This document shows, piece by piece, positions 41,831 to 44,350 of a stretch of DNA of 64,000 nucleotides; the first letter of the stretch is position 1, and every line of letters starts with the position of its first letter. Source of the DNA: Myxococcus xanthus (lineage in GTDB: Bacteria > Myxococcota > Myxococcia > Myxococcales > Myxococcaceae); the NCBI RefSeq assembly GCF_900106535.1, contig NZ_FNOH01000008.1, positions 248,001 through 312,000 on the forward strand, in the 5' to 3' direction. Under the pieces are notes generated by a model. That model ran no database searches and was not told the DNA's origin. It worked only from the letters and a program-made list of their open reading frames with translations. Made by a program: the position numbers and the translations under genes.

Positions 41831-42211
41831 TTATGGAATCTGCGCGGGCACAAGCTCGCGAATGCGGCTGACGAGCTTGTCCATGTCCAGCGGCTTGACG
41901 AAGTAGTCCGCGGCGCCCACCGCCATGCCGTGCCGCTTGTCCTCGGGCTCCCCGCGGCCACTGATGAAGATGACGGGAATGTCCCGGAACTGCTCGTTCT
42001 TCTTCACCGCCCGGCACAGCTCGAAGCCATCAATCCAGGACATGTTCACGTCCAGGAGGATGGCATGCGGCCGGTGCAGTTGGAGCGACGCGATGAGCCG
42101 CAGGCCGTTGGCCGCCATGGTGACGGCGAAGCCTTCGTACTCCAGGGCCGCCGCCAGCAGCTCCCGCGTGTCGCGGTCATCATCGACAATGGTGATTTTC
42201 AGCTTCGACAT
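41831..42211 (-). CDS. Single-domain response regulator
   Basis: Starting at ATG 42211 (a GTG at 42235 immediately after the xseB stop is possible), this 126-residue protein is one receiver domain. It has the acidic pair in IVDDDRDT, phosphoacceptor Asp in [15 protein letters not shown] (~55), the Ser in VIFISGRGE and Lys in YFVKPLD. There is no output domain, so it probably acts by protein contact, like CheY or Spo0F types. Its cognate kinase is not adjacent. Confidence 0.9.
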
Positions 42212-42235
42212 GCCGGAATGGACGCGCCCGAGCAC

Positions 42236-42592
42236 CTAGAACGGGACGTCATCCTCCGGGGGCGGGCGAGGAGTAGGGGCCCGAGGGGCCGCGGGCGCGG
42301 GCGCCGCCGGACGCGCGGCGACCGACAGGGGCGCCACCACGTCGTTTCCGTCCTCGTCCAGCAGGAGCTGTTCGATGCGCTGCTCCGCCTCGGTGAGCAG
42401 CTTCTCGCCCCGGCGCACCAGCCGGATGCCTTCCTCGAAGGCCTTGAGCGAGTCCTCCAGAGAGAGATTGCCGCTCTCCAGCCGGCCCACCGTCTCCTCG
42501 AGCCGGGAGACCACGTCCCCGTACTGCTCGGGGACCTCGGCCTCCGCTACCTTGTCCGCCTTGGGCGCCTTGTCCGACTTCGCCACTTCCAT
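42236..42592 (-). CDS. xseB: Exodeoxyribonuclease VII small subunit with SSB-like tail
   Basis: The 118-residue protein is longer than the usual ~80. Residues ~20-80 are the XseB helical hairpin (VVSRLEETVGRLESGNLSLE; FEEGIRLVRRGEKLL). An Ala/Pro-rich ~35-residue linker follows, ending in PPPEDDVPF. The terminal E-D-D-V-P-F closely resembles the acidic D-D-D-I-P-F tip of bacterial single-stranded DNA-binding protein, which binds repair and replication partners. The small subunits decorate XseA to form ExoVII, which degrades single-stranded DNA. The ATG is preceded by GGGGAGGT. Confidence 0.92.
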   Translation of the reverse strand: MEVAKSDKAPKADKVAEAEVPEQYGDVVSRLEETVGRLESGNLSLEDSLKAFEEGIRLVRRGEKLLTEAEQRIEQLLLDEDGNDVVAPLSVAARPAAPAPAAPRAPTPRPPPEDDVPF

Positions 42593-42634: not shown

Positions 42635-44350
42635 TCAGCAGTCCACCGGCCCTTTCACCGCCGTGACGGTGGCTTCGATTTCTTCACATCCCCCGAGCGA
42701 CTTCGCCCCGTTCGACGCGAGCTTCAGCCCCAGGCGCTCTCCCACCTGGACATCCGCGCCAGTGCGGACCACCGCGCCATCGCGCTGTCGGAACACCACC
42801 GAATAACCGCGGGACATCACCTTCAACGGACTCATGGCATCCAGACGTCCCTCCAGACGCTGGAAACGCTTCTGTGCATCCGCCAGGGCCCCTTGCTGGA
42901 GCGCCAGCAGCCGCGCCCGGTGCGCGGCCAGCCGGGCGCGCTCACGGGACACCTGGGCCGCCGGTGACGCCCTCTCGAGCCCCAGCCGTGCCGTCGCCAG
43001 CGCCCCGTGCCGCGTCGCCACACCTGCGCGCACCGCCTCCGACAGCCGCATGGCCAGCTTCAACAGGTGCGCCCGCTGCTCCCCCAGCCGTGCCTGGGGA
43101 CGCGCCCGCTGCAGCCTTTCGGTCAGCGACCGCAGCTCCTCGCGGTGCCCCCGCACGGCTGGCCGCAGCACGCGCATCATCGACTCCACCTGCTCGGACA
43201 GGTGCAGCCGCTGGTGGTTGATGGCCCGCCGAGGGTCCTCCAGCCGCGACGCGAGCTGCCCTTGCTCCTCGCGCAGCTCCAACACCCGGCGCTCCATGGC
43301 ACGCCGCAGACGGCCCGCCTGCGTGGCCAGCGTCAGCTCCAGGTCGGCCAGCACCGGCGCCAGGCGCTCCGCCGCGGCGCTGGGCGTGGGCGCGCGCAGG
43401 TCCGCCACGAAGTCGGAGATGGTGAAGTCGATTTCGTGGCCAATGGCGGACACCACCGGCACCGGCGAGGCGAAGATGGCGCGCGCCACCCGCTCCTCGT
43501 TGAAGGTCCAGAGGTCCTCCACCGAGCCACCACCGCGCGTCACCACGATGACGTCCACGTCCGTGCGAGCCAGCCGCTCGATGGCGCGAGCCACCTCCAC
43601 GGCGGAGCCTTCGCCCTGCACGCGCGCATCCGCCACCAGGACGCTCTGCCGCGGGTTGCGCGAATGCAGCACGCGCAGGAAGTCCTGGAGCGCCGCGCCG
43701 GTCCGGCTCGTCACCACGCCAATCCGCCGAGGCAGGTAGGGCAACGGCCTGGGGGGCCGCACACGCCCGGGACCAATGAGTCCCTCCTGGGCCAGCCGCT
43801 CCTTGAGCTGCTCGAAGGCCAGCGCCAGCGCGCCCTCGCCCACCGGCTCCAGCCGCTGAACGATGAGGCTGTAGCGGCCCTGCGGCTCGTACAGGTCCAC
43901 GCTGCCTTCGGCAATCACCTCCATGCCGTCGCGCAGCGCGAAGCGCAAGCGGGCCGCCATGGAGGCCCACACCTTCGTGTCGATGGCCGCGCCCGCGTCC
44001 TTCAGCGAGAAGTACCAGTGGCCGCGCGCGTTGGGCCCGCGGAAGCCCGTCACCTCGCCGCGCACGATGACGCGAGCGAAGCGCGACTCCAGCGTCTGCT
44101 TGAGCTGGCGGGTCAGCTCCCCCACCGACAGCACCACGCGCTCGGGCTTGGGCGGCGGAGGCGGCGCGCCCTCCATCGGACCCAGCAGCGAGGTGCCGTC
44201 CTCGTCCACCGGAGGCGGAGGAGGCTTCGGCGGCGCCGCGGCCTTCCGCGCCGCGCCAGTTGCACGAGGCGTGGAGGCGCCACTGCCAAACAGGTCACCC
44301 TGCAGGCCCACTGGCGGCAGCGTGCCGCCTCCCACCTTGCGCCGGGTCAT
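42635..44350 (-). CDS. xseA: Exodeoxyribonuclease VII large subunit
   Basis: The 571-residue protein is about 100 longer than usual because of an N-terminal Pro/Ala-rich extension (1-70). Then comes an OB-fold (~75-160, VSVGELTRQLKQTLESRF; VIVRGEVTGF). The catalytic domain has VTSRTGAALQDFLRVL, the RGGGSVEDLWTFNEE segment and GHEIDFTISDFVADLRAPTPS. A long coiled coil and a C-terminal SRGYSVVF segment complete it. The extension carries QGDLF at ~17-21, close to the beta-clamp-binding consensus Q-x-x-L-F. With XseB it forms the metal-independent exonuclease that trims single-stranded ends. Its ATG overlaps the stop of the FHA gene as ATGA. Confidence 0.95.
   Translation of the reverse strand: MTRRKVGGGTLPPVGLQGDLFGSGASTPRATGAARKAAAPPKPPPPPVDEDGTSLLGPMEGAPPPPPKPERVVLSVGELTRQLKQTLESRFARVIVRGEVTGFRGPNARGHWYFSLKDAGAAIDTKVWASMAARLRFALRDGMEVIAEGSVDLYEPQGRYSLIVQRLEPVGEGALALAFEQLKERLAQEGLIGPGRVRPPRPLPYLPRRIGVVTSRTGAALQDFLRVLHSRNPRQSVLVADARVQGEGSAVEVARAIERLARTDVDVIVVTRGGGSVEDLWTFNEERVARAIFASPVPVVSAIGHEIDFTISDFVADLRAPTPSAAAERLAPVLADLELTLATQAGRLRRAMERRVLELREEQGQLASRLEDPRRAINHQRLHLSEQVESMMRVLRPAVRGHREELRSLTERLQRARPQARLGEQRAHLLKLAMRLSEAVRAGVATRHGALATARLGLERASPAAQVSRERARLAAHRARLLALQQGALADAQKRFQRLEGRLDAMSPLKVMSRGYSVVFRQRDGAVVRTGADVQVGERLGLKLASNGAKSLGGCEEIEATVTAVKGPVDC

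Follow-up and report, generated by a model that had tools for sequence, protein, structure and literature searches.

The small subunit of exonuclease VII (XseB) of Myxococcus xanthus ends in the six residues EDDVPF, an acidic tip of the kind that closes the single-stranded DNA-binding protein (SSB). Our preferred reading, to which we give a probability of about 55%, is that this end mimics the SSB tip and would let exonuclease VII (ExoVII) bind SSB-tip pockets multivalently. Its novelty lies in the carrier, on which such a docking peptide, itself known, is unexpected.

The xseB gene and the architecture of its product

The window, i.e. the whole stretch of 64,000 nucleotides of M. xanthus DNA that was analysed, carries xseA and xseB as adjacent genes on the same strand, xseA being upstream. 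A response-regulator gene (41831-42235, minus strand) is located between xseB and a polyprenyl synthetase gene. The features considered are as follows:

42635-44350, minus strand: xseA, exonuclease VII large subunit of 571 aa, directly upstream of xseB (PF02601 and PF13742, the latter an OB-fold)
42236-42592, minus strand: xseB, exonuclease VII small subunit with an SSB-like C-terminal tip (118-aa open reading frame and PF02609)
42368-42511, minus strand: XseB core (Pfam-matched residues 28-75), a helical hairpin (block-mean pLDDT of 90-96 for the helices in the fused model presented below)
42257-42367, minus strand: XseB linker, variable, Ala/Pro-rich and mostly predicted to be disordered (block-mean pLDDT going from 74 to 51 and then to 38-43)
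42239-42256, minus strand: SSB-like acidic tip of XseB, six codons (E-D-D-V-P-F) abutting the stop codon (translation, pattern match and family conservation)

XseB was recognised by its Pfam match to PF02609 (residues 28-75; E-value of 7.7e-18; 64.7 bits vs. a curated cut-off of 24). Its residues 18-82 align to residues 5-69 of the 80-residue XseB chain of the Escherichia coli structure PDB 8txr, which XseA also matches (E-value of 2.9e-81), and the Pfam domains of XseA are an OB-fold and a nuclease domain. Translation of the 118-aa frame gives the C-terminus ...RAPTPRPPPEDDVPF-stop, in which the last residues, RPPPEDDVPF, are preceded by an Ala/Pro-rich stretch. The end PPPEDDVPF after an Ala/Pro linker, reported by an earlier sequence-only reading of this DNA, is thus confirmed, and the linker of about 35 residues claimed there is close to the 41-43 residues measured beyond the core.

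The tail has the final Pro-Phe of an SSB-type tip, with acidic residues and an aliphatic one (EDDV) before it, and a tether that is disordered by prediction, pLDDT being below 50 over most of the linker and tip in two models. Membership of XseB in the SSB family itself was rejected, as PF02609 is its only Pfam match and the SSB OB-fold domain (PF00436) is absent.

The two models were obtained with AlphaFold from XseA (from residue 70) and XseB joined as a read-through fusion, with one XseB copy and 54-55 alignment rows. For the host proteins (pTM 0.50), the XseB hairpin has a high pLDDT, which falls from 74 to about 40 along the linker and is near 45 at the tip; the result was alike for a second fusion, from genome G058 (pTM 0.52). 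The tip is left unplaced in both of these one-copy, shallow-alignment models (pLDDT of about 37-45), which are weak evidence given the single XseB copy, the read-through fusion, the few alignment rows and the pTM values. A Foldseek search ranked 8txr first and provided no information on the tip.

The tip in the host genome

A DNA pattern coding for [DE][DE][IVM]PF-stop, which excludes looser tips such as those with Leu at position -3, was found to match twice in the 9.26-Mb host genome, vs. no match for the reversed control pattern. The two matches are xseB and the single ssb gene, the latter match lying just beyond the sole SSB domain found in the genome, in a protein ending in GDDDIPF. The likeness to SSB tails that had been noted on the basis of the letters of XseB therefore extends to the SSB of the host, with EDDVPF in XseB vs. 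DDDIPF in SSB. Among 27 genomes of the same genus, the pattern gave 61 matches vs. 2 for the control, the latter being counted by eye. Estimated roughly from the composition of five window proteins, and assuming 7,500 proteins, the chance expectation of such a tip is about 2e-6 per protein, or 0.02 per genome.

Conservation in the Myxococcaceae

XseB is present in 115 of 116 genomes of the class and in 180 of 193 genomes of the phylum. Its end was read in 165 of the 180 phylum genomes with a match, four of these ends being cut by contig ends (three in the Myxococcaceae and one in a family referred to here as f3). For the Myxococcaceae, the window's own family, 87 XseB were read, 84 of them complete. 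As a whole, 82 of the 84 complete proteins end in Pro-Phe and 81 possess the entire tip [DE][DE][VI]PF, which is EDDVPF in 63 cases. Concerning the three XseB off the pattern, one (G174) ends in DDDTPF and two (G007 and G053) are without tip; both of the latter belong to a small-genome genus, g4, and are the only two XseB read in it. Secondary XseB-like matches in G099, G038, G105, G138, G166 and G185 were kept out of the counts; that of G099 (L118) is XseB-like but divergent, its end being acidic and devoid of Pro-Phe.

Residue counts and column entropies were taken over all 84 complete tails, tip-less ones included. Phe at -1, Pro at -2 and Asp at -4 are each found in 82 tails, and Val at -3 in 79, or Val or Ile in 81. 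The entropy is 0.19 bits at -1, -2 and -4, 0.44 bits at -3 and 0.55 bits at -5, whereas it ranges from 1.3 to 2.8 bits in the linker at -7 to -30 (1.9-2.8 bits at -10 to -30). The length beyond the core varies from 32 to 50 residues among the 81 tip-bearing proteins.

As for the codons, they were compared in 86 Val-type tips from several families, including two repeats (L033 of L001 and L146 of L101). Val is encoded by GTC (41), GTG (28) or GTT (17), Pro by CCG (71), CCC (12), CCT (2) or CCA (1), and Asp at -4 by GAC (63) or GAT (23). Since the tip codons vary at silent sites, the peptide and not the DNA is kept, and conserved DNA was rejected as an explanation for the same reason. The low entropy at the end, the changing linker and the silent codon differences, taken together, point to selection on the peptide end of XseB rather than on the linker or the DNA. 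As judged from these alignments, the retention of the tip across nearly the whole family indicates that it very probably has a function. A chance origin of the XseB tip was rejected on the grounds of the genome-wide pattern and its control, the composition estimate, the family conservation and the silent codon variation.

The SSB tips of the same family were also analysed. SSB matches over the cut-off were found at 88 places in 84 of 86 Myxococcaceae genomes (one match below the cut-off, in G106, being excluded from the count of Ile tips), and 81 of these places have an Ile tip just downstream. Among the seven others, the SSB of G091 ends in EDDVPF, and in G014 and G059 the SSB frame has no more than 134 and 128 codons, respectively, and is perhaps cut. 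In this family, SSB thus mostly has the Ile tip and XseB mostly the Val one. Because of this difference, the XseB tip may bind differently or more weakly than that of SSB, and the Val of XseB vs. the Ile of SSB may mean a tuned affinity.

Distribution outside the Myxococcaceae

Within the same order, a tip or near-tip is present in both XseB read in family f4 (GGDDIPF and GGDPVPF), in one of the two read in f6 (DDEDLPF) and in the only one read in f7 (DDEDVPF). In f9, G072 ends in DDDNIPF and G192 has a close end (DDADIPF), the remaining three XseB being without tip. The XseB of G032, in family f5, has a degenerate end, DPDIAF. The same-order families f2 (0 of 21), f3 (0 of 10 complete) and f8 (0 of 1) gave no XseB tip, and neither did f10 (0 of 2), which belongs to the same class. 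The sequence-only reading had proposed to look across the Myxococcales for a tail kept up to its last Phe; this holds for the Myxococcaceae, with Pro-Phe in 82 of 84, and fails as a feature of the order, given f2 and f3. In other classes, one of the 32 genomes read has a similar XseB end (G124, DPDKIPF) and 31 are without it. Since the tip is missing from XseB in f2, f3 and these 31 genomes, it is not a general requirement of ExoVII.

A genome collection was also scanned for XseB with a tip on a short linker. Twelve stretches were obtained, eight of them XseB with the tip and four without XseB. The eight comprise three from Myxococcaceae/Myxococcales, four from Acidobacteriota (Blastocatellia, Vicinamibacteria, Acidobacteria and Acidobacteriota) and one from Nitrospina, whose XseB ends in SQDDDIPF; two of the three Myxococcaceae/Myxococcales stretches (L136 and L146) duplicate G102 and G091, already in the family counts. 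As the scan was narrow (it required a linker of some 36-95 bases and the TTC codon, a design that misses most Myxococcaceae), the counts outside the family are a lower bound. The recurrence of the tip on XseB across lineages suggests its repeated use.

Other proteins carrying the tip

Ile-type matches away from SSB amount to 24 of 105 in the 86 Myxococcaceae genomes; two of them are XseB (G050 and G102), eleven others were opened and eleven were left out. In these relatives, the tip is therefore not confined to SSB and XseB.

In family f2, whose XseB is without tip, a helicase with a GDDVPF- or GEDVPF-type end was found in five genomes (G003, G008, G009, G048 and G069), second pattern matches in G019, G021, G024, G034 and G056 being left out. 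It is UvrD-like according to Pfam in the two of five that were tested, and the other four copies are 75-79% identical to the first. The five genes are located at L197:1-1599 (+), L198, L199, L200 and L201, with ends in DDVPF or EDVPF. A tip on a UvrD-like helicase in a family without the XseB tip would be as expected of a portable docking tag.

A small protein ending in DDDIPF, DEDIPF or DDDVPF was found in five genomes of genus g3 and in one of family f5:

L131:289-840 (+), L203:533-1543 (-), L211, L213:1040-1588 (+), L214 and L215: small tipped protein of g3 and f5

Its copies are 67-89% identical to that of L131 and share a conserved FPNYGRSKG stretch; no Pfam match was obtained for L131, L203 and L213, and no PHROG match for L131 and L203. 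A third tipped type, at L130, L202, L207 and L210, consists of proteins related to one another that may be phage single-strand DNA-binding proteins: L130 weakly matches such a phage family (E-value of 0.0019), and L202 gave no match. Other tipped proteins include an abortive-infection C-terminal domain protein (Abi_C, PF14355) at L208:703-1518 (+), which ends in ADDDIPF and is possibly a defence protein bearing an SSB tip, and a member of a phage family of unknown function (phrog_10048, E-value of 3.6e-43) at L134:2-973 (+), ending in GGDDVPF. Kinase-like proteins and spurious frames, as judged by eye, were also among the tipped frames.

Candidate receptors

The host has RecO, RecJ and PriA (the latter over the cut-off), each of which occurs in 47 of the 48 class genomes searched. 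As these candidate receptors are nearly universal, they fail to explain the distribution of the tip. The RQC domain of RecQ was found neither in the host nor in 46 of the 48 class genomes, so that RecQ, listed among the tip partners by the sequence-only reading, is an unlikely partner in the host. The only carriers of the domain among the 48 genomes, G007 and G004, have a tip-less XseB, which also makes RecQ unlikely, and it was dropped as partner on both counts. G007, with an RQC domain (L243 and L246) and no XseB tip, belongs to the small-genome genus g4 mentioned above.

According to PMC7913777, a hydrophobic pocket of RecO receives the last Pro and Phe of the SSB tip. For RecJ, PMC4846377 places the SSB-tip Phe in a deep hydrophobic pocket of the C-terminal domain of the Deinococcus protein, with Asp contacting a Lys, the Deinococcus peptide ending in EDDLPF; according to the same paper, Deinococcus RecO reportedly does not bind the SSB tip, which argues against RecO being a receptor in general. 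The Pro-Phe end and the acidic residues used in the RecO and RecJ pockets are kept in XseB. In a search for the tip pocket of RecO by sequence, the protein of G042, a genome of the same genus, could be aligned to E. coli RecO (3q8d) only over residues 7-158, with an E-value of 6e-7.

Proposed role and alternative explanations

In the proposed mechanism, the last six residues of XseB would be a functional equivalent of the acidic SSB tip, on a disordered tether. XseA is the partner expected to carry several copies of XseB, and an ExoVII complex holds 24 XseB. In PDB 8txr (E. coli), 4 chains of XseA sequence and 16 of XseB sequence are present. Because one ExoVII holds many XseB, it would display many tips and act as a multivalent ligand for the SSB-tip pockets of SSB-docking repair proteins, the candidate partners in the host being RecO, RecJ and PriA. 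Since XseB keeps the pocket-binding features of the SSB tip in many copies, these tips would dock on the pockets of the cell's SSB partners; nuclease and repair proteins would then be brought together on single-stranded DNA, and SSB would be competed with for its partners. What we infer here is that the tip binds such pockets, which protein is its partner, how many tips a complex has and how repair is affected; a caveat on the mimic is that the motif is short.

The main rival explanation, which we consider unlikely, is that XseA itself has an SSB-tip pocket: the XseB tips would fill it and keep ExoVII off SSB-coated DNA, or inactive, until displaced by SSB tips. According to PMC3000357, Bacillus subtilis XseA co-purifies with TAP-tagged SSB and no longer forms GFP foci once the SSB tail is deleted, which means that this tail is recognised by XseA or by a protein bound to it. 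With XseA in the SSB-tail interactome of B. subtilis, XseB tips could bind to XseA and so regulate how it contacts SSB, the more so as their local concentration beside XseA would be very high. However, in PMC3000357 the interaction of XseA with SSB is marked as not determined in vitro, and both fused models leave the tip unplaced, albeit as the weak evidence described above. The acidic end could also act by charge, as an electrostatic mimic of nucleic acid sweeping the basic DNA-binding surface of XseA without any SSB-type pocket, and the OB-fold and nuclease domains of XseA would fit with this. Charge, however, leaves the terminal Pro-Phe (82 of 84) and the Val or Ile at -3 (81 of 84) unexplained, and we regard this explanation as quite improbable. 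To our knowledge, the tail of Hfq, its precedent, has no Pro-Phe end. Hfq resembles XseB in carrying a disordered tail with an acidic tip on an oligomer, and differs from the role proposed for XseB in that the charge acts on its own core (PMC5606850); the strength of this action is set by linker length according to the same paper, yet the post-core length of XseB varies from 32 to 50 residues.

The least probable of the alternatives, in our opinion, is that the tip has no docking role and is a lineage-specific remnant or a C-terminal stability signal. Its absence from many relatives and from the two g4 XseB read would agree with this. It is opposed by the retention of the peptide, despite silent codon variation, beside a freely changing linker, by the recurrence of the tip in other phyla and by the similar peptide on SSB of the same cell.

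Relation to known systems and significance

The SSB C-terminal tail (MDFDDDIPF in E. coli) and the XseB tip with its tether have in common acidic and aliphatic residues, a final Pro-Phe, a disordered linker and several copies per complex. They differ in that XseB is a nuclease subunit without SSB domain and has Val instead of Ile at -3, and its pocket binding is putative. With respect to canonical E. coli ExoVII (8txr), the XseB core and the XseA partner are common to both, the genes being adjacent in the window, and the myxobacterial XseB differs by the extra linker and tip. DdrB of Deinococcus radiodurans, for its part, itself binds and anneals single-stranded DNA, and its motif is reportedly dispensable for radioresistance. 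Among the matches listed from the mostly open-access literature on XseB/ExoVII, SSB-like tails and mimics, and Myxococcus ExoVII, none was found to describe an SSB-like tip of XseB, in line with the statement of the sequence-only reading that it knew of no such case. The papers listed for the letter strings of the tip all had DDDIPF, and none the XseB-type EDDVPF or DDVPF.

SSB is viewed as an organiser that recruits repair proteins via its tip. A nuclease with many such tips could recruit or steal the partners of SSB, and such recruitment would give ExoVII, an enzyme poorly placed in repair, a route into RecFOR-type repair. A broader and more tentative proposal, which we hold to be possible though doubtful, is that the SSB tip serves as a portable docking tag, moved between repair enzymes: to XseB in the Myxococcaceae, where ExoVII would be a many-armed decoy or recruiter, to a UvrD-like helicase in another family, and to a small protein in g3 and f5. 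If so, a nuclease and a helicase would have a part in the SSB hub, and more tips may locally be displayed by ExoVII than by SSB.
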